A DNA stretch of 64,000 nt. It comes from Diacronema lutheri. Its lineage: Eukaryota > Haptophyta > Pavlovophyceae > Pavlovales > Pavlovaceae. The stretch covers positions 868,001-932,000 of the forward strand of contig JAGTXO010000014.1 of the NCBI GenBank assembly GCA_019448385.1, written 5' to 3'. Shown here piece by piece: positions 12,081 through 61,700 of the stretch. The notes under the pieces were generated by a model. It made no database searches. It was not told the DNA's origin and saw nothing but the letters and a program-made list of their open reading frames with translations. The first letter of the stretch is position 1. Every line of letters begins with the position of its first letter. A program made the translations under genes and the position numbers.

Positions 12081-13389
12081 ATTAGTTTTATACTAACGAC
12101 GCTTTCCGACGGGTCAACAGATGGGGTCAGGAAGTGCGCAGCGAGGCGCCAGGCGGAGCAGGCCCAAAGGCCCACTCGCGCCTAGCCACCGCGCGCCGCC
12201 GCCCGCGCGCCGCCGCACCGGTGGCCGCCGTCAATCACACCACCGGCCGACGCGCACGCGCACGCCGAGGCCCGAAGATCGTCGGCGACGACCGCCACCC
12301 CCGAGCCGCCGCCTGCCACGTCGCCAAGCCGCCCGCCGCCGCTGCAGAGCGCGACGCCCGCCGCCAGCGAGCCGCCGCCCTCCCCGCCGCGTCGCAGCCC
12401 CCTGCCGCCGCCGCGAAGCGTACCGCCACCCGCCGCCAGCGTGGCAAGCGCCGCGATGCTGGCCGCGTGGCCGCGCACGCGCGCCCCGCCATCCCCAAAC
12501 CCACCGACCGGGGCGAAAAGTACGTTGTTCGCGGTGCCGGCGCAGTCGATGGGCAGGGGCGGCGGGGCGCGCGGAGCGCGGCCATCAGAGCGCGAGGGCG
12601 CAGCCGTCGCAAGCGAAGGTTTCGTCGTAGAGAAGGCCACGCCGCCGTCGCTCGTGCGGCCGTGCGCGCGCGCCCCGCCACCCCCAAACCCACCGACCGG
12701 GGCGAAAAGTACGTTGTTCGCGGTGCCGGCGCAGTCGATGGGCAGGGGCGGCGGGGCGCGCGGAGCGCGGCCAGCAGAGCGCGAGGGCGCAGCCGTCGCA
12801 AGCGAAGGTTTCGTCGTAGAGAAGGCCACGCCGCCGTCGCTCGTGCGGCCGTGCGCGCGCGCCCCGCCACCCCCAAACCCACCGACCGGGGCGAAAAGTA
12901 CGTTGTTCGCGGTGCCGGCGCAGTCGATGGGCAGGGGCGGCGGGGCGCGCGGAGCGCGGCCATCAGAGCGCGAGGGCGCAGCCGTCGCAAGCGAAGGTTT
13001 CGTCGTAGAGAAGGCCACGCCGCCGTCGCTCGTGCGGCCGTGCGCGCGCGCCCCGCCACCCCCAAACCCACCGACCGGGGCGAAAAGTACGTTGTTCGCG
13101 GTGCCGGCGCAGTCGATGGGCAGGGGCGGCGGGGCGCGCGGAGCGCGGCCAGCAGAGCGCGAGGGCGCAGCCGTCGCAAGCGAAGGTTTCGTCGTAGAGA
13201 AGGCCACGCCGCCGTCGCTCGTGCGGCCGTGCGCGCGCGCCCCGCCACCCCCAAACCCACCGACCGGGGCGAAAAGTACGTTGTTCGCGGTGCCGGCGCA
13301 GTCGATGGGCAGGGGCGGCGGGGCGCGCGGAGCGCGGCCATCAGAGCGCGAGGGCGCAGCCGTCGCAAGCGATTAGTTTTATACTAACG
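12081..13389 (-). mobile_element. Non-autonomous retroelement copy A with 18-bp target-site duplication
   Basis: The 18-mer ATTAGTTTTATACTAACG occurs at 12081-12098 and 13372-13389 and brackets 1,273 bp. The first about 380 bp after the left repeat are nearly identical to copy B at 17960-18342; the rest is the 189-bp tandem array. Read on the minus strand, both copies end in AAGCGTCGTTAGTA, the same terminus as the plus-strand retrotransposon ending at 17927. They are therefore best read as minus-strand, 5'-variable copies mobilised in trans. No coding function is evident. Part of the duplication (TACTAACG) may reflect homology between target and element end rather than true duplication. Confidence 0.7.
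12474..13371. repeat. 189-bp tandem array, about 4.7 copies
   Basis: The landmark CCAAACCCACCGACC recurs at 12495, 12684, 12873, 13062 and 13251, exactly every 189 bp. Units are almost identical; a single site alternates CATCAG, CAGCAG, CATCAG, CAGCAG, CATCAG, so the array has a 378-bp dimeric order. Because 189 is divisible by 3, all frames repeat as 63-residue units, which explains the long frames on both strands; I do not consider them coding. Confidence 0.9.
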
Positions 13390-37235: not shown

Positions 37236-40200
37236 ATGGGGCACGGGCAAGGGCAAGGGCTTGCGGCCGCCCTCGAGGCCTCCCCGCTGGGGCGGCGGCT
37301 GGGCTTGCGCGCCGGGGGTCCGGAGAGCGCGGTCAAGGCGCGCAGCATCCTACGCCGCGGCGATGTGCGCCGGCAGCCGGGCGGCGCGGCGCATCGCAAG
37401 GTGCAGTGGCGCGGCGTGCTCGTCGGCGTCGACGAGGAGGACGCGGACGCGGTGCGCGCGCAGATGCACGCGCGCGCGCAGTTCGAGGCGCGGATTGCGC
37501 GCTACTACAAGCTCCTTCGCTTGCCGACGCTCACCTACGAGGAATTCGCCATCCCGCTCCGGTGCGCGTTCCCCGTCGGCTTCGCGCGGCTCGCGCTGCC
37601 GATCGTGCTCGACGCGGCGGTCGATCTGTTCGAGCTGGCGTGCATCGCGCACGCGGTGCGGCGCGAATTCCGCGAACACGCGGCACAGCGCGTAATGCGT
37701 GCCACGGCTGCCGCAAGCGTGCCGAACGCGCCGCGCACGGCTGACGCCGGCGATGGCGAGAGCGCGCCGTACACGCTCGAACGGCTCATCGTCGACCTCG
37801 TGACCGTCTTTGCGCTCGCGGCGGGGCGGACGACGCAAGCGCGAACAGGCTTGCTGTGGCCGTGGTACGGCGCGCAGGTCTTCCGCTGCATCCGCCTCCG
37901 CGACCTCAGCGATTACATGGCGCATCTGAACGCCGACCTCACGACCAACGTGACGGTCTTCGCCATCTTCAAATTCACGCTCGTCCTGATGAGCGTGCCG
38001 CACTGGGTGGGATGCATGTGGTGGGCGCTCTCGGCGTCGCCCGACCGGAACGGGCTGCAGCTCCCGTCGTGGACCGCGCAGTACGAGATGCTCGTCGGCG
38101 TGCCCGGCCTCTTTGAGCCGACCCAGACGAGCGGCGTCCGTGCGTACATGATGGCGCAGTACATGGCGTGGTCGGGCGTCGCGTCGATGGGGTACGGGAG
38201 CATCACACTCGTGATGCAGTCGGAGATCTGGTTCGGCTCGTCGATGATCATCGTGCAGATCGTCTTTTACGCCTGTGCGCCGCAGCGCCACACCGCGCCG
38301 CCATTTGCGCGCCGCTCCACAGTTTCACGCTACGCTCGCGCGCGCGACAATGACGCGCCCGCGCCCGCCCCTTTCCGCGCGACTCGCCGGCGCGTCCTGC
38401 TTCAGACGTGCTCGGCACGCTCTTCCACTACCTCGTGCGCACGGACGAGCGAACCGTCCGCTTCAACGAGCTCATCAAGGCCGTCGAGGAGTACGCGACG
38501 CGCCGCAGGCTGCCGCCAGCGGTTGGGCGCAAGATGATCGCGCACTTCGAGTTCCAGCACCGCAAGCAGTCAAGCGGGACAGAGGCGGTCTTCCAGCAGC
38601 TGCCGCTCTCGCTCCGCCTGCGCGTCGCGGGCGCGCGCTACCATGACCGCGTGTCGCGCGCGTGGGTGCTGTACGGCAGCTCGCCCCAGTTCCTCGGCCA
38701 GCTCGTCATGGTTCTGACCGAGCGGTACGCCATGCCCCTCGAGATGCTCTTCGACCGCGGCGACGGAAGCCGCGAGCTCCTCTGGTGCACGTCGGGCACG
38801 CTGCACGTGCGCAAGGGCGACGCGCACATTGCGACGGTCCGCTCCGACCTGGGCGAGACGCCGATCGTCGGCGAGATCGCCTTCATCCTCGGCATCGTCC
38901 AGCCGTACACCGTGACGACCACCGGCGCGTCCGAGGCGACGCTGCTCGTGCTCGCATCGTCCGACTTTGACGAGGTGATCGCCGTCTTCCCCGAGCAGGC
39001 CGACGTAATCGTGCAGAACTTGCTCCGCCGTTTCGCGCTTTCTCGCGATGGCTCGGACCTCGGCCGCGGCCTCGAGCTTGACGCAACGCTCAGCGACGAG
39101 GAGCGCGAGGAGTTCGAAGAGCTGCGCGAGCTCGTGCGGCAGGCGCTGCACGACCGCAACGACGACGCGCTCACGCAGATGACCTACGCCGCGTCCGAGG
39201 GCGACGTCGACCGCGTGCGCTCGCTCGCCGCGCGCGGGCTCAACCTCAACGCGGGCGACTATGATCTCAGGACGACGCTGCACCTCGCGTGCTCCGAGGG
39301 CAACGCGCGCGTCGTCGCGCTGCTCTGCCAGCTCGGCGCCGATCCAAACGTGCGCGACCGCTGGGGTAGCGCGCCGATCAAGGACGCGATCGAGGGGAAG
39401 CACGAGGCCGTGCTCGACGTGCTGCGCCAAGCCGGCGTTGCGCTCGAAGTCGTCGACCCGGCCCGACTCCTCTGCGACGCGGCCGCGAGCGGCGACCTCG
39501 ACCGTTTGAACAGGCTGCTCGAACACGGCATCGCCGCCAATTCGGGCGACTATGACGGTCGCACGCCGCTCCACCTCGCCGCCGCGTCGGGCAACATGCG
39601 CGTCGTCGAGTTCCTCGTCTCGAAGCTCGCAGACGTCTCGGCGCAGTGCCGAGAGGGCGCGACGCCCGCCGACGACGCCGTTGCGTCCGAACGGCCGCTC
39701 GTCACGCAGGTGCGTGCGCGCGTCTCGCCGCGTTACGCGCGCCGCGCCAAGCGGCGCCGCGCCGCGCCGCGCCGCACCGCGCTGTGCGCGCGCGTCACGC
39801 CGGCTGCGCGCCAAGGAGCGGGTCAGCATCATGCGCAGGTCGGGGCAGGCGAACGCAGCGCACGCGCGCGCTCACGATCGCGCGCCGGCGTGCTCGCCAC
39901 CACGCGCGCGCGCGCCCCTCCCCCACCCCCCCCCCCCTCCCCCCCCCCCCCCCCCCCCCCCCCCCCGCAGCTGCTCGTGCGCGCGGGCGCACGGCCGAGC
40001 CCACTCAAAATGGCACAATCGCTATGCGAGGCGTCCGCGGCAGGCGACATTGGCCTTGTGCGCTTCTTCGTTGAGACTGGCGTTTTGGTCGATGCCGCTG
40101 ACTACGATGGCCGCACGGCGCTGCACCTCGCGTGCGCGGCGGGCTCGATCTCGACGACGCATTACCTGCTCGGCGCGATGGCCGACGTGGAGGTGCGCGA

Positions 40201-43200
40201 CCGGTGGGGCAAGCCGCCGCTCATTGACGCGTTGTGGACGTCCAACGAGTGCGCGGCACTCCTCGTGCAGCAGTGCAACGCAAAGCTGCCGCTCGAGCGC
40301 GCGGCGGACCCCGAGCTGTGCGCGCTGTATGAGGCAGCGGCCGCGCGCGACATGTACGCGACGAACCGCAGGCTCAACGCGCGCGCCGGGCGGCGCAAGC
40401 AGCTCGAGCTGCTCAAGCGCCACCGCTCGCGTGAGCTCGGCGTCGCGCTGCGCGAGCTCGTCGACGACGTTGGCAAGCTCTACCGCGCCGCGCGCCCGCT
40501 CTACTCGCTGCTGCTCAAGCACGCGGAGCGCTGGATTGAGAGCTACGGGCAGATGGGCGCCGAGTCGGACGACAACTCGCAGGCGTCGTGCTCCGAGGAG
40601 GACTGGGCGTCAGACTACGACTCGGACGACCAGGTGCCCGACGGCGCGCGCGGCAGCACGGGTGGGGTGTCGGACGGGCACGGCAGGGACACGCCCGAGG
40701 CTGGCGCGCACTCGCGCGTCGAGACGCCTGCCGTCGATGCCGCGGCGACCGCCAAGACCTTCATCCGGCTCGTGCTCCGGCTGCCTCGCGCCGAGAAGGC
40801 CCTCGGTGCTCTTTCGGCCATCTTTAGCGCGCGACTCTCATCAAGCTCCTTCGCGCCCTTCGACAAGGCCGAGCGTCTCGAAAACGAGCACGCGGCGATG
40901 ATTGACATGCTCGTTGACGCGTTCGGACTCGAGGCGCGGCTCGCCGAGACGGTCTGCGACGAGATCTACGCCGAGCTCGCGCAGCTGCTCGGCGCGAGCG
41001 CGCCGCACAGGCCGAGGCAGCGCGCCGTGGCCGCGCCGCACCTCGGCGCGAGCGGCGACGACGGCGTCGGCTGCGCGCGCGATGACGTGAGCAGCGCGGC
41101 CGGCTCGTACGACAAGGCGGGCGACGCCGAGCGTGACGACGCTCGGCCGTGTGTCTTCCTGTCGCAGGTCGGGTACGTCGCCGCCTTCTGCTCGAAGTCG
41201 CTCACCGCGCTGCTCGTGCAAGATGGGCACGGCGAGGGTGGCGCGGGAGGCGCCGATTCGCCCACCACGTCGGGCACGCCCAAGCGCTTTGCGCGGCGGC
41301 TTAACGGCGCGCCCGCGAGCGACATGCACAGCGCGCCATCGCGCTGGCTTTCAAATGTGCCAATGGCGGCAGTGCGCCTCTCGCGCATCTCCAACGGCTC
41401 CGCGTACGCGCCGAGCGAGCCGCTTGCCGCGCCGCGCGGGCGCGGCGCGGCGGCTGCCGGCGGAGTTCGCAGCTCAAACGAGCACTCCGACCTGGCTACC
41501 GTTACTTTGCCCGTGCCCGTTCGGCCAGGCATGCGCAAGACGGGCGGTTGGGGCAAGTTTGCGCGGCGTGTCGTCGCGCTGCGCGCGTTCGGCAGCCTGA
41601 CCACACGGCGCTCCACCGCCTCCGTCGCGCGACCGACGGGCAGCGCGGGAGGCGAGCCGCGCAGCATCCGAGTGTCGAGACGCGGCGCGCCGACGGCGGA
41701 AAGCCGCAGCCTGCCCACGCTGCCGAGCGGCGGCGCGTCCGCCGATATCAAAGCCGCAATTGCGCCGGCGGCCGAGCTGATGGCGGGCCTCTTCGCCATC
41801 TTTGACCCGAACAACCGCGGCATCATTAAGGTGCGCCATCTGCGCTCGCTGCAGGGCTCGCTCGGCGAGATGGGCGGTGATGAGATCAAATCGCTCATCA
41901 CGCACCTCTCCGAGGCGTCGTCGGGCCTGTACGGCGACTCTCTTGTCGACGTGATGAGCGCGGGCGAGCACAAGCCGCGCCAGCTGACAAAGGTCCAGTT
42001 CTTCGCGGGCGCTGCCTCGTGGATCCTTGCGCAGGGCGAGGACGACGACGTCGACAGCGCAGGCTTGCCGGCCTCCCGTGGCGGTAGCGACCAGCGCGGC
42101 GTGCGCGGCGGTGGCAACAAGGCCGTGCCAGCGCTCAAGCTCAGGCTCGGCGCCGTGTCGGGCGGAGCTGGCGCCAAGCCGCCCGGCGCGGCGCGGGGGC
42201 CGGACAGCGCGCGCGACAGCGACGATGGCGACGGCGCGGCGCCGGAGGCAACGGCGGCCGAGCGCACGCTGCGCGCGCAGCTCGCCTCGGCGCCGCTACT
42301 CGCCGCGCTCGCCGACGCGGTGCAGCTGCGCATTGACGTCGGCAGGCTGCGGCGCGATCAGCCAGTCGAGGCGGAAGCGCTCATTCCACTCATTTTAAAC
42401 TCGGTCGCTGTCAACCCGAAGCTCGTGCGCAAGGCGGATGTGGAGGCGTGGGTGTTCGATGCGCTCGGCCTTGAGATCTCCGACCGCGCCATCGAGCAGC
42501 GCAATCCGGCCGAGCGGCATGCGTCCGTCGAGTCGGCGCTCGGTGCGGCCGCGACGGCTCTTGAGCAGAGCAGCGCGGCCGGCGGCGGCCGGCGCGCGTC
42601 AGCCATCGGAAAGGATGGTGAGGCCGAAGGGCGGCGGAACAGCGGCCTCGGGTCGCGTCGCGACTCTGCGGAAGCCGGCGCGGCCAAGCCGCACGCCGCG
42701 ACGTCCGCGGCGCTCGGCGCCAACGCCGAAGGCGCGCCGCGCGTGCAAGCGCGCTGGCGTGAGCTGGTGACCGCGCTGCGCGCCACGAGCGCGCAGCTGC
42801 GACAAACGGCCAAGGAATCTGGCGCGGCGGATGCCGCGCTCGCCTCGATGATCGCGCCGCTCGCGGCGGGCTGGACCGATCGCCTGCGTGCGCGCTTTGG
42901 CCTCAAGCCGCCCGACGCGCGCGCTGGAGCGGCCGGCGCGGCCGCGGCCGCCGATCTGGCCGCAGCGGACGATGCCGACGCGGGCAGCGAGGCCGGTGGC
43001 GTTGGCGGCGCCACGGCCGCAATGCTCGCCTCGATCGAGAGCCAGGGCCGGCACGCGGTCGCCAAGCCGTGGTACGTGATCTCGCACGTGAGCGCGACGC
43101 ACCGCGCGCTGACGCGCTTCTACCTCGCGCTCTTCGCGTGGGAGGTGATCGCGCAGCCCGCAACGCTCTGCTTCTGGGAGAACGCGAAGACGCTCGAGTG

Positions 43201-46200
43201 GCTCTTCTTCTCGTCGTACATGATCGACGCGCTCTACATTGCGCGCATCGCAATCCGGCTGCACACCTCCTTTGTGAACGCAAAGTCGGCCATCATCTAC
43301 GATGCCGCCGAGATCCGCACGCACTACCTCACGACCGAGTTCGCCTTCGACGTCTTCATGACGTGGCCGCACAACGCGTTCGCGATCGCGCTCTCGGCAC
43401 CGCCACAGGTGGCGTACGCGCTGCGCCTCTTCCGCCTCGGGCTCGCGCGCTACGCATGGCGCGCGTACGCCGAGTGGGGCAAGCGCCAGGTCGACAACGA
43501 CCTCGTGACCGGCATCCTGCGCTTCCTCTCAATCCTCGTCGTCGTCGGCCACTTCTGCGCGTGCATGTGGAACCTGCTCGGCTTCCAGTTTGATGGCGTC
43601 GCCACGTTCACGCTGCAGAATTGGAGGCCCGCCGACCCAACGTTTGTGCGCACGTGGCCCGCGCAGTACAACGGCCTGTTCCACGAGGGGGGTGCAACCG
43701 ATGAGAATGACTTCCTCTCGGCCGACTTTTCGAACGCGTGGATTGGCGTCCGGCGGTACTCGATCGCGCTGTACATGTCGCTGTCGATGCTCTCCGGCCT
43801 CGGCATCAACCACCTGCCAACAAACTACGTCGAGATCGCCGCGTACGTTGGGATGCTCATCCTGTCGATGACAGTGTACGCGTGGACTGTCGGCCAGATC
43901 AGTACGCTCGTGATGAAGCAGGACGACGAGATCGTGAGCAAGCGAAGCCAGCTCGAGCTCGTCCATGCGTACCTCACGCACATCGACGTGCCCGCCGAGC
44001 TCAAGGCGCACGTCGAGGGCTTCTTCCACGCGCGGCTGCGCGACGCGTCCTTCTCGTCGGTGCGCGACGAGGACATCGCGGGCATGATGCCGATCGCGCT
44101 GCAAATTGAAGTGAGCCGGCACACGAACCGGCACCTCGTCGGCGAGGCCAAGCTGCTCCGCGGCTGTTCCGACGCCTTCGCCGACCGCCTCTCGTCCCTT
44201 TTGCGCGAGCGCACGCTTGAGCCCGAGACGATGCTCTTTCGCGAGGGCGAGGCGTGCAAGGAGCTGCTCCTCGTCGAGTCGGGCTCCGTTGAGCTGTGGC
44301 ACGGCTCGGACACGCCTGGCGGCAGCGGCGGTGCCGACGACGACGACGACGACGATGACCTGCAGCTTGCAGTGGCGGGCGACACGGTGGGCGACCTCGC
44401 CTTCGTGTTTGGCATCCGCCACTTCAACAGCGGCCGCACCGCCTCCGACGTGGAGACGCGCGTCTTCGTCCTCTCCAATGAGAGCTACCGCATCCTCCTC
44501 AAGACCTTCCCCATGCAGGAGGACAAGGTGATGGACAACGCGATGCTGCAGTACGACGGTATGCGCACGCCACCGCGGGCGCACTCGACGCGCGCACCCG
44601 TTCCACAACGCCGCGCAGCGCGAGACCCGCTCACGCGCGCACGCCCCTCCGATCGCGCCACCTTTCACGCGCGCGTGGCCGTGCAGGGATGCTCACGAGC
44701 CGCTCGGGCAAATCCAAATCGTCGAGCAAATCGTCCGCGCTCGGCTCGACGCTGACGGACACGGAGTCGCAGTATGCCGCATCGGCCGTGGGCTCGGCCG
44801 TCGGCACGCAGGCCAACGCTGCGCCGCTGACCGAGGAGGAGACGATCCAAAAGGTCCGCGCGCGGCGCCGCGCCGCGCCGCGCCGCGTCGCATAGCCTGC
44901 CATCGACGGGCGCCCTGAGCGCTTACGCGAGTGCTTGGCCGTACCGGCACCCTTCCCCCTTGATGCGCAGGTGATTATGACGGCGAAGAAGCGGCGCGAA
45001 AACATGCATGTCGTGCGGCTGTGCGAGGCTGCGGCGAAGGGCGACATTGAGAAGATTCAGCGCATCCTCTCCAACAACCGGATCGACGTGAACGGTGGCG
45101 ACTACGACAAGCGACGACCGCTGCACCTCGCGGCGTGCGAGGGCCAGCTCAAGGTGATCGAGCTCCTCATCGCCGCGCAGGCGGACGTGAACGTCAAGGA
45201 CCGCTTCGAGGGCACGCCGCTCGCCGACGCGATCCGCCACCGCAAGCTCGCCGCCGCTGAGCTCCTCCACCGACACGGCGCGTTCCGCGACACGACGGGC
45301 CTGTCGGAGCAGCTGTGCTACTGCGCGGCCGACTCAGGCCGCCTCGAGGAGCTCGAATTCCACATGCGCTTCAAGGCCGATTTCACCGTCGACAATTACG
45401 AGGCGCGCACCGCACTGCACGTCGCAGCGGGCGTCGGCAACGTGCTCGCCGTCCAGCTACTGGTCGACGCGAAAGCGGACGTGAACGCGCGCGATCGGCG
45501 CGGCCGCACGCCGCTCTACGACTCCTACCGGCAGCAGCACGACGCATGCTCGCAGATCCTGATCGCGCACGGCGCGCACATGGGCACGTTCGACGCGGCG
45601 CTGCACATGTGCTACGCGGCGGCCGCCGACGACCTGGACACGCTCAACCGCCTGATCAGGCACAGGGTGTCCGTGAACGTGGCCGACTACGACAAGCGCA
45701 CGCCGCTCCACCTCGCAGCGTCCAACGCGCGCGTCGCGGCGTGCACGCTGCTCCTCGAGCAGGATGGCATCAACACGGCGGCGGAGGACCTCTTCGGCAA
45801 CACGGCGCTCGACGACGCCGAGCGCGAGAACGGGTCCGACCAGCCCATCGTGCGCGCGCTGCTCCGCACGCGCGGCGTGCCGACCGGCTCGCACGAGATG
45901 ACGATGGCCGCCACGCTCACGCACGCTGAGGAGCTCAAGGCCGACATCGAGGCCAAGCAGACGGATGTGCAGCGCGACGTTACCGACCAGGCGAGCCGTT
46001 ACAGCGCGTGGGTCAAGGAGCAGTGCGCCGCGGCGAGCGCATTGTGTGCGGCCGTCGAGGCCGCGCTGCGCCTTGAGAACGACCAGGGCGAGGTGCTCTC
46101 GGACGCGACGCCCAAGTTTTGGCGCGTGTTGCAGGACTACGCCGACGCGCACCCGGCGCGGCTGCGGATGGTGAGCGTCGACATGAAGGAGAGCCTCGCG

Positions 46201-52900: not shown

Positions 52901-53865
52901 GTCGGCATTGGCATCGAGGGCAAGGAGGGCAAGCAGGCGAGCATGGCCGCCGACTTCTCGTTGCTCGAATTCTCGCACCTGCAGCGCCTCGTACTGTGGC
53001 ACGGACGCAACGCCTATTTGCGCTCGTCACTTCTCGCACAGTTCGTCATCCACCGCGGCCTCATCATCGCGATGATCCAGGCCGTCTTCTCGTCGCTCTT
53101 CTTCTTCGCGTCGATTGCCGTGTACAATGGCTTCCTTACCGTTGGGTACGCCACCATCTTCACCACCGGCCCCGTCTTCTCGCTCGTGCTCGACGAGGTG
53201 CGCTGCGCGCGCGCGCGCGCGCCCATGCGGCCGCCCGCAGCGGAGGTGTGTCGCTCACACGGCGCGCCCGCGCGCCGTGTGGCCGTGCGCGCAGGATATC
53301 TCGCAAGAGAACGCGCTCAAGTACCCCGAGCTCTACAAGGAGCTGCAGAAGCGGCGGCATCTCTCGCTCAAGACCTTTCTCATCTGGACATGGAAGGCGA
53401 TCTACCAGGGCGGTGTGATCATGCTCGGCGCGATCTTCCTCTTTGACAAGCGGCTCGTGCACGTCGTCGGCATCAGCTTCACGTCGCTCATTCTCACGGA
53501 GCTCGTCATGGTCGCCGTCGAGGTGAAGCGGTGGCATACGATCATGATCGCGTGCGAGGTGCGCGCGTTGGCAGGCGTGCCAGGGGCACCCCGAGGCTCG
53601 GCGCGCGCCGCGCGCGCTGACGGCAGGCGTGCGCGCGCGTCGCATCCGCCGGCAGGTGCTCACGCTCCTCGTCTACGCCGGCTCGATCTTCGCGCTCTCG
53701 TCGCCGACGCTGCTCGGCACGAGCACATTTGATCTGCCCTTCATGCTCTCCGTCGAGTTCCTGTGGAAAGTGTCCGCCATCACTGCTGTCTCGTGCGTGC
53801 CCGTGTGGGTGGGCAAAGTGTTCTCGCAGCGGCTCGCGCCCGAGAAGGCAACAAAGATTCGGTAG
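49986..53865 (+). CDS. P4-type ATPase (phospholipid flippase)
   Basis: Five exons, 49986-50930, 51132-51848, 52124-53197, 53295-53558 and 53656-53865, all joined in phase 0, give 1,069 residues. Family hallmarks appear in order: RVIRLNAKRPTT, NVINNQKFSLLTFFPKVLYE, FFFNLYFLVVAISQFFPPL, actuator motif LDGETDWKLR, phosphorylation motif DKTGTLTRNEMVF (Asp431), EFPFSSESKRMGIVLR, FYAKGADVVM, TGDKLETAMVIAQN and hinge GDGGNDIPMI, then four C-terminal membrane helices. It uses ATP to move aminophospholipids to the cytosolic leaflet, usually with a CDC50 subunit that is not in this window. The region between DGET and the second membrane pair has a Gly/Ala insert. Introns 1 and 2 carry long C runs (51072-51097, 52078-52100). 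The stop lies 34 bp from the stop of the zinc-finger gene. Confidence 0.93.
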
Positions 53866-53899
53866 GTCGGTGGCGGGCACAGAAACGAGACTTTCTTGT

Positions 53900-56800
53900 C
53901 TAGCGCGCAGTATGCTTGCGGCGGACATGCGCCTGCGACGGCGGCGGGCGGAGGTGTTGACGAAGTGGGCACGCGGCGGGCGGGCGCGAGAGGCGTGTGG
54001 TCGGCGACGAGGGCAGGCGCCCCGTGCGCTGCAGTGCAAAGCCGCCTCGCGCGCCGGCCCTGCTGCGGCGCACCGTCAGGTGGCTCGATGTGGCAAAGGC
54101 CTGGCCGCAGCCCGCAACGGTGCACGCGAACGGTTTCTCGCCCGTGTGCGTGCGGATGTGCGTCTGCGGCGCACCGCACGAGGCCGTGAACGCGCGATGC
54201 GGTTGGGCGCAAAGGGCGGAGGTCGGTCGAGCAAGAGCGGTCAGCGTCCCCACGCGCCGCAGCGGGCGCTCTCGGTGTGCCGCGCCGAGAAGGCGGACGA
54301 CAGGTCGCGCATCCCCTTTGGCGCGCTCGCGCGCGCGCGCGTGCGTCGTCCGCCGGCTCATTACGCGCGCGCGCCCGCGTTGCACGGTGTGGGCACGCGG
54401 CGGGCGGGCGCGAGAGGCGTGTGGTCGGCGACGAGGGCAGGCGCCCCGTGCGCTGCAGTGCATAGCCGCCTCGCGCGCCGGCCCTGCTGCGGCGCACCGT
54501 CAGGTGGCTCGATGTGGCAAAGGCCTGGCCGCAGCCCGCAACGGTGCACGCGAACGGTTTCTCGCGCGTGTGCGTGCGGATGTGCTTCTGCGGCGCACCG
54601 CACGAGGCCGTGGGCGCGCGATGCGGTTGGGCGCAAAGGGCGGAGGTCGGTCGAGCAAGAGCGGTCAGCGTCCCCACGCGCCGCAGCGGGCGCTCTCGGT
54701 GTGCCGCGCCGAGAAGGCGGACGGCTGGTCGCGCATCCCCTTTGGCGCGCGCGCGCGCGCGCGCGTGCGTCGTCCGCCGGCTCATTACGCGCGCGCGCCC
54801 GCGTTGCACGTTGTGGGCACGCGGCGGGCGGGCGCGAGAGGCGTGTGGTCGGCGACGAGGGCAGGCGCCCCGTGCGCTGCAGTGCATAGCCGCCTCGCGC
54901 GCCGGCCCTGCTGCGGCGCACCGTCAGGTGGCTCGATTGGGCAAAGGCCTGGCCGCAGCCCGCAACGGTGCACGCGAACGGTTTCTCGCCCGTGTGCGTG
55001 CGGATGTGCTTCTGCGGCGCACCGCACGAGGCCGTGAACGCGCGATGCGGTTGGGCGCAAAGGGCGGAGGTCGGTCGAGCAAGAGCGGTCAGCGTCCCCA
55101 CGCGCCGCAGCGGGCGCTCTCGGTGTGCCGCGCCGAGAAGGCGGACGACAGGTCGCGCATCCCCTTTGGCGCGCTCGCGCGCGCGCGCGTGCGTCGTCCG
55201 CCGGCTCATTACGCGCGCGCGCCCGCGTTGCACGGTGTGGGCACGCGGCGGGCGGGCGCGAGAGGCGTGTGGTCGGCGACGAGGGCAGGCGCCCCGTGCG
55301 CTGCAGTGCATAGCCGCCTCGCGCGCCGGCCCTGCTGCGGCGCACCGTCAGGTCACCCGATTTGGCAAAGGCCTGGCCACAGCCCGCAACGGTGCACGCG
55401 AACGGTTTCTCGCCCGTGTGCGTGCGGATGTGCTCCTGCGGCGCACCGCACGAGGCCGTGAACGCGCGACGCGGTTGGGCGCAAAGGGCGGAGGTCGGTC
55501 GAGCAAGAGCGGTCAGCGTCCCCACGCGCCGCAGCGGGCGCTCTCGGTGTGCCGCGCCGAGAAGGCGGACGGCTGGTCGCGCATCCCCTTTGGCGCGCTC
55601 GCGCGCGCGCGCGTGCGTCGTCCGCCGGCTCATTACGCGCGCGCGCCCGCGTTGCACGTTGTGGGCACGCGGCGGGCGGGCGCGAGAGGCGTGTGGTCGG
55701 CGACGAGGGCAGGCGCCCCGTGCGCTGCAGTGCATAGCCGCCTCGCGCGCCGGCCCTGCTGCGGCGCACCGTCAGGTGGCTCGATGTGGCAAAGGCCTGG
55801 CCGCAGCCCGCAACGGTGCACGCGAACGGTTTCTCGCCCGTGTGCGTGCGGATGTGCGTCTGCGGCGCACCGCACGAGGCCGTGAACGCGCGATGCGGTT
55901 GGGCGCAAAGGGCGGAGGTCGGTCGAGCAAGAGCGGTCAGCGTCCCCACGCGCCGCAGCGGGCGCTCTCGGTGTGCCGCGCCGAGAAGGCGGACGACAGG
56001 TCGCGCATCCCCTTTGGCGCGCTCGCGCGCGCGCGCGTGCGTCGTCCGCCGGCTCATTACGCGCGCGCGCCCGCGTTGCACGGTGTGGGCACGCGGCGGG
56101 CGGGCGCGAGAGGCGTGTGGTCGGCGACGAGGGCAGGCGCCCCGTGCGCTGCAGTGCATAGCCGCCTCGCGCGCCGGCCCTGCTGCGGCGCACCGTCAGG
56201 TCACCCGATTTGGCAAAGGCCTGGCCACAGCCCGCAACGGTGCACGCGAACGGTTTCTCGCCCGTGTGCGTGCGGATGTGCTCCTGCGGCGCACCGCACG
56301 AGGCCGTGAACGCGCGACGCGGTTGGGCGCAAAGGGCGGAGGTCGGTCGAGCAACAGAGGTCAGCGTCCCCACGCGCCGCAGCGGGCGCTCTCGGTGTGC
56401 CGCGCCGAGAAGGCGGACGACAGGTCGCGCATCCCCTTTGGCGCGCTCGCGCGCGCGCGCGTGCGACGTCAGTCGGCTCATTGCGCGCGCGCGCGCGCGC
56501 AGGCGCGCACCTCGAGAACGTGCTTGATATCAAAGGTCCACGCGCAGCCGGGATGCGGGCACTGCAGTGCTCGGCCGAGCACCGGCTTGCGCTCCGAGCC
56601 GCCGCCGCGCGCGCGCGCGCCGCCGCCCGCCGCCGCCGCGGCGGCGCGCGCCGCCGAGGACGTCGCGCAGGCGGCCGCACCGCGCTTGCGCGCCGACGCG
56701 CCGCCGATGCGCGTGGCGCGCGCGCCGCGGCGCGGCTGCGCCGCGCTGTCATCCGAACCTTCGCTCGAGTCGTCGTCTGATTCGCCGTCGCTCGAGCTGC

Positions 56801-58639
56801 TCGTCCCATCGCCGTCGCTCGAGCTGCGCGTGCCGCGCCGCCGCGCGGCCGCCTCCGAGCCGTCGCCGCCCTCCGAGTCGGACTCGCTTGAGCCGTTGCC
56901 GTCAGAGTCGTCCGACGGCGCAGCGGCACGGCTTGGGAACACGCTTGGCGTGTACTTGACCGGCTTGCCCGTCGGCCGCCCGCTGCGGCGCAGCTCGGTG
57001 AAAAGCTCACGCGCCGCATTGCGCGCCTCCGCCGCTGTGCGCCGCTCGCCAGTGTGCAGCTGCGCTCGGGTGCGCTTGGCGTTGACGGGCTGGCCGACGA
57101 GGAGTGAGCCACCCGGCTCGGCTGGTGAGACGAGGCCGAGCTGCACCATCTTGAGCCGATTCGCCTTGATCTGCGCCGCGCGCGCCACCTCATACGGCGT
57201 CAGCCCGTCCACGCCGGCCGCGGCCATCACGAGGTCGAGCTCGGCAAAGAGCGAGCTGCCGCCGCCGCCGCCGCCGCCGCCTGTGGCCGCGCCGTCGGCC
57301 GCGCCAGCTGGCGCCGCCTCAGCAGAACCGCAAGCCACGCGGCCCTCGGCGCCGACGGCCGCATCGGCGCCAGCGCCGGCCGTGTCGTCGTTCGCGCCGC
57401 CGGCCGCGCTGTCGTGGTCCTCGTCGTGCTGTGCGCCGAGCGGCCGCCGCGCGCGCTGCTCATCGGTGAGTGCGATGGGTTCGCCGAGCGCCATCTGCAC
57501 GAGCTGCTCGCGCGCAGGCTGCCACTTGAGGTGCGCGACGGCAAGGTCTTGCATCGTCACCCGCTGCCGGTCGGCGCAGTGCGCGTGCTGGCGCTGGTGC
57601 GCGACCGCCCGGTGCAGCGCGGCGGGCATGCGTGCGAGCTCGAGGGCGGCGTCGACCTTCCGCTCGGCGTCATAGCGCGCGTCGTAGCGCTGGCGGATGC
57701 TGCGCAACCTCGGGTCGTGCATCAACGCCTCGATCGTACCGTCCGCGAGCGCGCGCTGCACCTGCGCCGTCCGCTCGGCGTCCGCCTTGTCGTGCGCGTC
57801 ACACTCGGCTTCGAGCTCAGCCTCCCATGCGCGCACATGCTCCGCCTGCACCTCATCCATCCGGTGCGTCGGCATGAGGTTTGCAACGCCCTCCGCCTTG
57901 GCCTTGGCCATGTCCTCGAACGCGCGCTGCACTTTGACGAGATAGGCCTGCGCCTCGGGAAGGCTGCGTGGCGGTCGAGGCAAACGCGCAGCGCACGATC
58001 GACAACGGTCCGCAGTGTGGCGGAGAGGCAGCGGTCGCAGCAAGCGCGCGGCGATCGATTCACGGCGGCCCACGTTGCGGCGAAAAGGCAGCGGGCATGA
58101 AGGAATACATACGCAGGTTGGGCAGGCGGCCGGCGCGAACGCACGATTCAGAGCGCGCACACGCGACCCTCGCGCGCGCGCGCGCGTCGCGCGCGCGTTG
58201 CACGCGCAGCTTGGTACGCGCGCGGCCGGTTGCCGTCCGGCGCCGCACGTCGCCTGCATGCACTGCACTGCGAAGATCAGGCTGGATCGGCGCGGTGCAA
58301 GCGGCATGCGCAGGAGGGCACAAGAGTCAAGGCGCGCGCGCGCGACGCGTACAAGCGCCACCCAATGATCGGGCGGATCGCCCACACGACATTGCCATCC
58401 TGGAAGACGTCGTCCCACGTGAGCGCGCCGCGCGCGATCAGCTCTGCGACGGAAAGCTTGAGGTCGCGCGGTATGCAACGGCGCCACATCACGATCTGCG
58501 TGAGGTTGGCGTGGCCGCGCGGAGGCTCGGTGTTCATGCGCACGGCCATGTTATGCATGCGCCGCGCGCGCGCCTCCTCCTCCGTCTCGGCCTGCACGAA
58601 GGGGCGTGGCCTCCCGGCGTCGAGTGTGTCCACGGTCAT
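53900..58639 (-). CDS. C2H2 zinc-finger protein with tandemly duplicated finger exons
   Basis: Exons on the minus strand: 58639-58353, 57963-56511, six 90-nt exons (56283-56194, 55859-55770, 55435-55346, 55011-54922, 54587-54498, 54163-54074) and 53932-53900. Phases agree throughout; 770 residues. Exons 1-2 encode a helical region ([19 protein letters not shown] onwards), acidic Ser/Asp tracts, a basic patch and the first Cys pair, CPHPGC. Each 90-nt exon begins with the two His of one TFIIIA-type finger, the TGEKP linker (TREKP in 54587-54498), and then the Cys pair CTVAGC and helix of the next finger. The final exon [10 protein letters not shown] completes the last finger. Spliced in full this makes seven C2H2 fingers. 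Predicted nuclear DNA-binding protein. Confidence 0.85.
53945..56490. repeat. 424-bp tandem array, six units, one exon per unit
   Basis: Corresponding points recur at exact 424-bp steps (for example exon boundaries at 54074, 54498, 54922, 55346, 55770 and 56194). Introns are as conserved as exons, pointing to recent expansion. Finger helices differ: ATSSHLT in units at 54074, 54498 and 55770; AQSSHLT at 54922; AKSGDLT at 55346 and 56194. Every other unit in the last three is identical, suggesting an 848-bp duplication step. Confidence 0.93.
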
Positions 58640-58769
58640 CTCGACCGAATTCGACTGCGTTTGAACTTTCTGAGCCTGGAGCCTTAGTTTTCGCGCGCTT
58701 TTTCAGCTGAGTCACGGCTGTGCTCGAGACTGACAAGCCCAATCACCGTGTCGGCCGTCTCACGCACTT

Positions 58770-61700
58770 TCAAACGCCGAGCTCTTCGGCAACGAGCGCG
58801 GCGAGCTGCTCGGCGCGCTGCGCCAACGATCTGCTCTCGCCGATCTCGAGCCCGCCCTGAGGCCGGATCGCGCCGCGCGCGCCGGGAGCGGACACGGCGC
58901 TGTCGTTTGCAAGGTACTCGCCGAGCCTCTCGTCGAGCGTGCCCGCCAGCTCGAGCTGGTAGAGCAGCACCTGAGGGCGGACACGCATCGGAGATGCGGG
59001 CACGGACAGGCACGGCGCAGGACGCGCCCCTTGCTGTGAGTGCAATGCCAAAAGGCCGCGGCGGCAGCTGTGATGAGACGCGGCGCAACGTGCGCCGTGC
59101 CGCTGTGCCGCAGCGCGCCGCGCCAGCGCCGCGCACCGGCGGCCGCCCCTTGCTCGGGCCGAGCAGCGCGTCGAGCCACGCGGCGCGCGCGCAGTCGTCG
59201 GCTGCGGGCCTCAGCTCGAAGAAGATGAGCGCGTCGACCGAGCGCAGGCGCGGCGGCATCCCCGAGCCGTGCGGCGCGAGGAGGACGCAGGCGCACGGCA
59301 GATCGATCGCGCTGCGCGGGCAGGCGCGGGCGCGGCAAAGCGCAGGGCGAGGACGGTGCATGTGCGCGCGCGCCGGTGCGTGAGTGTGAGGGCATACTCT
59401 GCAGCAGGGATGGTAATGCGCGGCGAGTCACGCGGGGCTGGCGTGCCCATCGAGCCGCTTGAAACGGAATGGGGAGAGGCGAACGGCATGAGCTGAGATG
59501 GGCGTGCAGGCAGTGCATGCAGGCAGCGCCATGCCGTGAGTGCATGCAGGCAGCGCCATGCGTGAGTGCATGCAGGCAGCGCCATGCGTGAGTGCATGCA
59601 GGCAGCGCCATGCGTGAGTGCATGCAGGCAGCGCCATGCGTGAGTGCGTGCAGGCAGCGCCATGCGTGAGTGCATGCAGGCAGCGCCATGCGTGAGTGCA
59701 TGCAGGCAGCGCCATGCGTGAGGCAGCGCCATGCACAGCGCCATGCAGACAGTCAGCTGCGGGTGAAGGGCAGCAGCACAGCGCTCTCACCTGGCGGCTT
59801 CAAACGCAGCCGCCGTCTCGGCCGCGCTCTCCGCCGGCACGTGCGCGAAAGCGGCGTCGGCCGCAAATCCGCGCGCTGTGCCACTCGCGGCCACCTCAGC
59901 CGCCGCCCGCGCTGCGGTGGCGGAGGCGGCCTCGGCCGCCGCAGCCGCCGCCTGCACGGCCGCGGCGACTGCGGCGGCCTTGCCCTTGCTCGAGCCCTTG
60001 GCCACGCCAGCCTTGCCGACGGGCGGCTGCGGCTCGGCGCCGCGCGGCGCGAGGTGCATCGTGCAGTGCGGCAGCGCGCGGTGCAACAGCAGCGCGCACA
60101 CGGCCGCGGCGCACTCCGCGGTTCTCACGCAGATGACGACGTGCGCGCGCGTCGGCTGCGCGCACGGCGCGCGGCGCGGAGCGACGCGCGCATGCGAAGG
60201 AAAGGAGAGGGCAGGGCAAGGGCGCGCGCCGCGAGTAGACGGACTGCTCGTGAGCACGAGCTGTCGGCACGGTCAACGCGCGCCGCGCGGCGACGGCGCG
60301 CGCGGCTACGGCGCGGGGCGGGCCTCGCGCGCGCGCGCAGCGTACGAGAAGCCTCTGCGCGAGAAGAGCGTCGAGGCCGCGCAGCTTGGCCGCGCCCGAG
60401 AGCAGCGCGCCGAGCGGCGGGATCCACAGCCGGGCGGCGTGCGAGTCGGGCGGCAGCGCGCGGCTGAGCGCGATGCGCAACGCGGCGGGCACGCGCGCGA
60501 GCGCGCCGCTCGACGCGGGCCGGTGCGCGCGCGCGCGATACGGCGCCATGGACCACGCGCTGTGCGGCGCGACGCGGCTCGCAGCCGGGCAGTGCGCGCG
60601 TGCGTGCGCGAGCACGGCGGCGCGTGCCGAAGGCCAAAGGCCGCCGCGCCGGCCGAAAAGCCGCGGCGCCGCCGAGACGGCGGGTGCGATCGGCGCGGCG
60701 ACGACGCGCGGCGCGGGCCAGCCGTCCGATCCGCCCATGCCGAGCGCGGCCGCGGCGGCCGCCGCGACTGCGGCCGCGCCCTCCGCTGCGCCGGCGCCGC
60801 CCGCCGTCGGGAGAAGCTCACTCCACGTCGTGCGCCGTCCGGCAAGGAGGCATGGTTGCGCGCCGCAGAGCTGCAGCGCGAGCGCCGGCGCGCGCGGCGG
60901 CGCGTGCGCGCGGCAGACGCGCAGCGCGCAGCGCAGCCACGCGCGCGCCTCTGACTGGGCCGCCGCGTCCGCAGCGGCCGCGGCGGCCGCGGCGGCGGCC
61001 GTGCTCGCCGCGCCCGCCGGCCGCGCGCCCTGCCTCGCCGGCACGCCGGCACGCTGCGCGCCGGCGCCCGCGGCCGAAGGACCCGCGCCATCCGCGGTCG
61101 CGCCCGCGCCAGCCGTGACCGCGACCGCGGGCGCGCGCGCGGCAAGCGGGTCCATCTCGCGCGGTCGGACGAGCGGGAGGCACCCCTCGTCGAGCATGGC
61201 GACAAGCGCGCCGAGCGCGCGCGACGCGCGCGCGCGCGCCGCCACGTCAGACGCACCAAGCCCGCAGAATGGGAGCCAAGAGAAGGCGCCGCGGTCATGC
61301 GTGAGCTCGCCACGCCGCCCGTGCGCGAGCGCGACACGATCGGCGGACGCGGCGACCGGCTCGGCGACCGGCGCGCCGTCGGCTACGACCGCCGACGCGG
61401 CGACTGCGTGCGCCGAGACGCGCGCGCGCGGCTCGTCGGGCGGCCGCGGCGTGCCCGCGACCGATGCGACGATGTGCCGTGTCGTCCAAATGTTGGGCAC
61501 CCATGGCGGTATCGCGCTCACGCCCTCGTCCAGCTCGACCGCGCGCGCCGCGCCGCTGTACGGTGCGCCGGCCGGCAGCAGCGCGCGCTCGCCCGCGCTG
61601 CCGACATGCTCAAGCGAGGCGCGCGGCGCGGCGCGGCCGTAGCGGACGAGGGGGCTCTCGCACATGCGCAGCACGAGCGCGATCGTCGCTGTACTTGGCG

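Follow-up and report, generated by a model that had tools for sequence, protein, structure and literature searches.

The window analysed here is a 64,000-nt stretch of the Diacronema lutheri genome (assembly GCA_019448385.1, contig JAGTXO010000014.1, here C85, positions 868,001 to 932,000). It carries an intact zinc-finger gene on the minus strand, from 58639 to 53900. These limits, already given in a preliminary description of the locus, are the ATG and the stop codon of the spliced model. Two 5' exons are followed by six 90-nt phase-0 exons and a 33-nt terminal exon, and the protein spliced in silico has 770 residues. The donor of exon 1 is ambiguous by 9 nt, lying either after 58353 (GTACGC) or after 58362 (GTGGCG); the alternative gives 767 residues and leaves the downstream frame unchanged. 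The parts of the gene are listed in transcript order.

58353..58639, minus: exon 1, ATG at 58639
56511..57963, minus: exon 2, N-terminal region, acidic Ser/Asp stretch and first half of finger 1
56284..56510, minus: intron A, 227 nt, 3' part like the 3' part of the repeated intron
56194..56283, minus: unit exon U1, E...KSGDLT
55860..56193, minus: hybrid intron after U1, 334 nt
55770..55859, minus: unit exon U2, T...TSSHLT
55436..55769, minus: hybrid intron after U2, 334 nt
55346..55435, minus: unit exon U3, E...KSGDLT, identical to U1
55012..55345, minus: hybrid intron after U3, 334 nt, same sequence as after U1 and after U5
54922..55011, minus: unit exon U4, K...QSSHLT
54588..54921, minus: hybrid intron after U4, 334 nt
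54498..54587, minus: unit exon U5, K...TSSHLT, linker TREKP, not TGEKP
54164..54497, minus: hybrid intron after U5, 334 nt
54074..54163, minus: unit exon U6, T...TSSHLT, identical to U2
53933..54073, minus: intron B, 141 nt, 5' part like the 5' part of the repeated intron
53900..53932, minus: terminal exon, 33 nt, ends in the stop codon and completes finger 7

Tandem array and predicted split of the recognition helix

Seven stretches of the spliced protein match zf-C2H2 in Pfam (E 4.1e-38 for the whole protein). The fingers follow C-x2-5-C-x12-H-x3-5-H and are joined by TGEKP-type linkers (TGEKP five times, TREKP once), which places the protein in the C2H2 (Krueppel/TFIIIA-type) family. There are seven fingers, since exon 2 gives the first half-finger and the 33-nt last exon closes the seventh. 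We consider it very probable that this is an intact seven-finger C2H2 gene whose array grew by tandem duplication of an exon together with its intron, with later exchange between units and with selection on the residues predicted to contact DNA.

Tandem Repeats Finder, which made no use of flanking signals, reported a period of 424 with 6.0 copies and 97% matches at 53965-56499. A script that searched for CGCAG and GTGCGC flanks found six 90-nt exons, each preceded by CGCAG and followed by GTGCGC; the five full introns that separate them are each exactly 334 nt long. The two approaches agree on the six 424-bp units, each with one 90-nt phase-0 exon, that had been described before. The helix variants TSSH, QSSH and KSGD and the near identity of the introns had likewise been read correctly: pairwise, the introns differ at 0 to 6 of 334 positions and the exons at 0 to 7 of 90. 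As also claimed, the fingers are completed only by splicing to the next unit. Seven joins of three kinds (exon 2-U1, unit-unit and U6-last exon) all restore C-x12-H exactly, and because of this exact restoration chance is a poor explanation of the array.

The splice signals are uniform. GTGCGC starts all seven introns from exon 2 onward, and CGCAG ends all eight introns, intron 1 ending in CACGCAG before 57963. A yardstick of two introns was found in one neighbouring gene, a plus-strand P4-ATPase gene that ends at 53865. Its introns begin at 53198 and 53559 with GTGCGC donors, and their acceptors, CGCAG or GGCAG, lie before 53295 and 53656. The C-terminal 170 residues of the spliced product align to 9vdk ('probable phospholipid-transporting ATPase IIA') with no gap at either join; the best solved P4-ATPase relatives are ATPase IIA and NEO1. 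Stop codons occur in only one of the three frames of the repeated intron, as expected at the GC content of the window (72.3%). This counts against the intron model, since two of the three frames are stop-free, so stops do not mark the introns as non-coding. What speaks for a non-coding reading are the fingers restored at the joins, the splice signals and the intron length. At 334 nt this length is not a multiple of three, and a retained intron would therefore shift the frame out of the next finger. On these grounds we infer that the introns are spliced as modelled.

In the standard C2H2 helix numbering, with the standard contact set of -1, 2, 3 and 6, the predicted splice junctions fall between positions +5 and +6 in every finger. 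The +6 contact residue of each helix is the first residue of the next exon. This residue, which stands before the first zinc-ligand His, is E, T, E, K, K and T in unit order. The quartets at -1/2/3/6 in fingers 1 to 7 are IHVE, KGDT, TSHE, KGDK, QSHK, TSHT and TSHA. In the six array fingers all quartets differ, yet there are just four distinct exon sequences. U1 has the same sequence as U3, and U2 the same as U6, yet the fingers begun by the two members of each pair differ, because +6 comes from the following exon. The varying +6 residue had been missed earlier, together with the count of seven fingers and a second assembled copy of the array (see below). All six unit exons are 90 nt and phase 0-0. 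With phase-0 introns between +5 and +6, gain or loss of a whole unit therefore preserves the frame and every finger, and this symmetry supports the earlier claim that copy number can change without loss of frame. On the predicted junctions, such gain or loss can also supply the preceding helix with a new +6 residue.

Three further features of the locus were observed. The 11-nt sequence GTGCGCCGCAG, a donor-like and an acceptor-like sequence fused, opens and closes each repeated intron; 12 copies lie on the minus strand, all within the array (window 54073-56294), and one lies on the opposite strand at 38275. The P4-ATPase and zinc-finger genes stand tail to tail, with 34 nt between their stop codons. 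About 0.9 kb upstream of the start of the zinc-finger gene, a 26-bp tandem repeat occupies window 59512-59722 (8.1 copies at 98%).

Origin of the repeated unit and its assembly

The repeated intron resembles intron B over its nt 1-119 (97%) and intron A over its nt 119-334 (96%). In ungapped comparison the B match stops after nt 109 and the A match begins at about nt 119, within a GC-repeat stretch. Judged by these matches, the repeated 334-nt intron is a B-A hybrid. Because of this hybrid structure, a tandem duplication is the probable origin of the unit, with breakpoints in both of the introns, A and B, that flanked a single exon. Over all 334 nt the introns after U1, U3 and U5 do not differ, and those after U2 and U4 have three other letters in common (unit nt 201, 286 and 288). 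Because the intron variants alternate between successive units, an 848-bp, two-unit duplication step is suggested.

At the start there would have been a single internal 90-nt exon, with intron A on one side and intron B on the other. A first duplication would have joined the break in intron B to the break in intron A, and later rounds, perhaps including the 848-bp two-unit step, would have multiplied the units. Exchange between units would have spread and mixed the variants. Diversifying selection would keep the differences at the contacts, and homogenisation would even out the rest. The earlier proposal that the array grew by duplication of a whole intron-exon unit is supported by the hybrid introns.

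Another repeat in the window, of 189 bp, lies at 12469-13372 (4.8 copies at 99%), with several frames open. One letter alternates from copy to copy, so that here too, as in the 424-bp array, the pattern recurs every two units.

Two other origins were considered. A mobile intron (introner) was rejected as the main explanation: the repeated intron matched only the array, on C85 and on a second contig, C26 (14 matches). Alternatively, a structured RNA in the intron, such as a snoRNA, could keep the units alike, the exon being a mere passenger. The introns are indeed more alike than the exons, but no Rfam family matched 53800-58700 at E up to 1, and recent duplication explains the likeness; we give this account almost no weight.

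C26 (61,996 bp) overlaps the last 41 kb of C85: the match starts at window 41595 and stops 106 nt short of the C85 end. It falls into two blocks (99.92% and 99.88%). The longer, window 41595-71547, has one substitution, in a poly-C run, and otherwise length differences only; seven mismatches and three gaps were counted in the shorter. From 52079 to 69760 the two contigs are without difference, so the zinc-finger gene is identical on both. C26 continues 21 kb past the end of C85, which terminates in poly-G. With 40 of 1331 candidates scored, 3 kb tested from this extension recur almost unchanged in at least 39 other places in the genome. Most likely the C26 copy is the same locus, left at an assembly fork as an overlap that was not merged; a genuine second copy from a recent duplication is less likely.

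The near-identical overlap, the repeated extension and the poly-G end are fork-like, and they favour the idea that the second copy, or the number of units, is an assembly artefact. This evidence touches the second copy and not the array. The gene is the same on both contigs, and U2, U4 and U5 each have differences of their own. The PacBio subread N50, 23.458 kb according to PMC8379373, is about nine times the length of the 2.5 kb array. An artefact appears very unlikely. The earlier concern that the array might be collapsed or expanded in the assembly is lessened by the subread length and the identical C26 gene, although it is not closed.

Two observations concern the surroundings of the overlap. 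The extension is C26 (L038-L040) 1-21207, and the repeated 3 kb tested within it, L038 5001-8000, is perhaps a recently spread mobile element. Besides its copy on C26, window 43000-45500 has related stretches at about 80% on both C11 and C47, and weaker relatives in other places, as a family of genes or elements would.

Variation among units

In the five complete units 16 of the 424 sites vary, nine in the exon and seven in the intron. The four contact codons, 12 nt in all, hold seven of these 16 sites (six nonsynonymous and one synonymous). In 100,000 random placements of the 16 sites a count of seven in these nucleotides was never reached, and at least nine in the exon had p 0.0018. Over the six exons, variable sites made up 6 of about 9.3 contact nonsynonymous sites, 1 of 58 other nonsynonymous sites and 2 of about 22.7 synonymous sites, and over the five introns (introns A and B excluded) 7 of 334. 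With site numbers rounded for the Fisher test, p for contact nonsynonymous sites was 5.6e-6 against other nonsynonymous, 2.1e-3 against synonymous and 6.3e-8 against intron sites. Of the five amino-acid positions that vary, four are contacts (hypergeometric p 1.8e-4). These counts bear out the earlier statement that the differences are concentrated at DNA-contact residues.

Several points weigh against selection on the contacts. Five of the nine exon sites have one split (U1 and U3 versus the rest); the tests assume independent sites, and because the sites are linked, the p-values are too small and the real events fewer. The contact set -1, 2, 3, 6 was named after the variation had been seen. 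Tree-based selection tests in such arrays have been objected to in the case of Prdm9 (PMC3890296). Synonymous exon sites are slightly more variable than introns (2 of 23 versus 7 of 334, p 0.11), and age or conversion may explain part of the exon excess. Non-contact nonsynonymous sites are no less variable than introns (p 1.0), which leaves purifying selection unsupported.

Some of these observations also suit ordinary tandem exon duplication without diversifying selection, in which two or three older haplotypes were spread by unequal crossing-over and conversion and the helix differences are incidental. The shared split of the five exon sites fits this account, as do the variable synonymous sites and the conflict in pattern between site 74 and sites 201, 286 and 288. 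On the other side, four contact codons out of 30 hold all but one of the seven nonsynonymous variable sites, and four of the five variable amino-acid positions are contacts, with the hypergeometric p given above; we find duplication without selection a doubtful explanation. The conflicting patterns point to exchange between units or to repeated mutation. Diversifying selection on the DNA contacts, with the rest homogenised, is likely to be the cause of the clustering at -1, 2, 3 and 6, and the most likely of those considered.

The array might also be a combinatorial factor made by splicing, in which exon skipping gives isoforms with different finger numbers and newly paired helices, as had been envisaged earlier. 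The shared 90-nt length and 0-0 phase of the six exons suit this idea. As arithmetic only, independent skipping allows 54 distinct versions of the array, counting the full and the empty array, and 15 distinct helix quartets. If skipping is true, the gene would be a possible source of splice isoforms with different targets. However, the splice-site sequences do not differ from unit to unit, which gives no sign of regulation, and duplication alone also yields symmetric exons; skipping in living cells seems improbable. Another reading, which we hold less likely than not, is that the array serves as a recombination-ready DNA-reading code. Gain, loss or skipping of a unit would leave the protein whole and could re-pair helix halves and create new fingers without new mutation, a PRDM9-like evolution through introns, perhaps directed against the alga's own mobile elements. 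Overall, the preliminary description is confirmed as an observation and partly supported as an interpretation.

Family background and comparison with known systems

The N-terminal 561 residues have no convincing Pfam match and no NCBIfam match. PR/SET, KRAB, SSXRD, SCAN and BTB were absent from the two Pfam families listed for this region and from the 18 listed for the whole protein at E up to 10. Matches to NifU_N and similar Pfam models within the fingers, NifU_N being above the cut-off, were set aside on the assumption that they reflect the regular Cys spacing. With 175 residues from the beginning of exon 2 as query, the zinc-finger gene itself was the sole match, on C85 and C26. The last 175 residues of exon 2 gave 11 pattern matches in viral contigs, none of them confirmed, and among solved structures none came below E 0.69 for residues 1-272.

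With the array protein as query and 40 candidates scored, at least 12 other C2H2 loci were found in the genome at E up to 1. All five of the 12 that were inspected (on C6, C5, C88, C9 near 1839 kb and C36) have at least three complete fingers in one frame. The pattern acceptor-residue-His-three residues-HTGE, which is blind to fingers with other linkers or codons, matched in the genome only the zinc-finger gene, at five of its six units on C85 and C26. U5, which lacks the G, escapes it, and the reversed control pattern gave 0 matches.

PRDM9 is the best-known fast-changing zinc-finger array, with its fingers in one exon. The hallmark of its family is a PR/SET methyltransferase domain, usually with KRAB and SSXRD. 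By its Pfam matches the algal protein falls outside this family, and its array is no single-exon coding minisatellite, the fingers being split by introns in the model. The likeness lies in the array itself, in which near-identical tandem C2H2 fingers have differences that cluster at contact residues. According to PMC3890296, PRDM9 repeats are 84 bp, their differences lie at contact residues -1, 3 and 6, and exchange between units is suggested. The contrast drawn in the preliminary description fits this account: the algal unit is an exon plus a 334-nt intron, and each finger is split across units. The excess of amino-acid differences at the contacts agrees with PRDM9-like array evolution, with p-values weakened by the linked sites and the post-hoc contact set.

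In TFIIIA-like genes with one finger per exon, introns stand between single C2H2 fingers, and both fingers and introns are old and diverged. We know of no recent array of near-identical intron-exon units among them. The KRAB- and SCAN-type genes have Krueppel-type fingers in variable number with TGEKP linkers, and in PMC2443715 their finger domain is drawn as a single exon. No Pfam model of the KRAB, SCAN or BTB families was found in the zinc-finger protein. The zinc-finger exons of fruitless are alternatives, one used in place of another. In insects, splicing selects among them (PMC3572092). In contrast, the algal exons are near-identical and would be joined in series.

The LPA kringle IV type 2 (KIV-2) repeat resembles the algal array in that a block of exon plus intron, repeated head to tail, encodes repeated protein domains. 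Its unit is 5.6 kb with two exons, in 1 to about 40 copies per human allele (PMC11462820), whereas the algal unit is 424 bp with one exon and is known from one assembly, and LPA is not a DNA-binding array. The same type of head-to-tail, frame-preserving exon-intron repeat is present here in one strain.

A literature search for one-finger-per-exon arrays or whole-unit duplication, with few subscription papers within reach, found no such array. In the literature covered, the processes are known singly, namely exon duplication, PRDM9-like turnover and LPA KIV-2-like repetition, and neither their combination nor the helix-splitting intron was found. The gene offers a testable case of exon duplication altering DNA-binding specificity in a unicellular alga, far from animals. 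Unlike in PRDM9, with its single finger exon, the breakpoints would be taken by the introns and the coding part would be spared.

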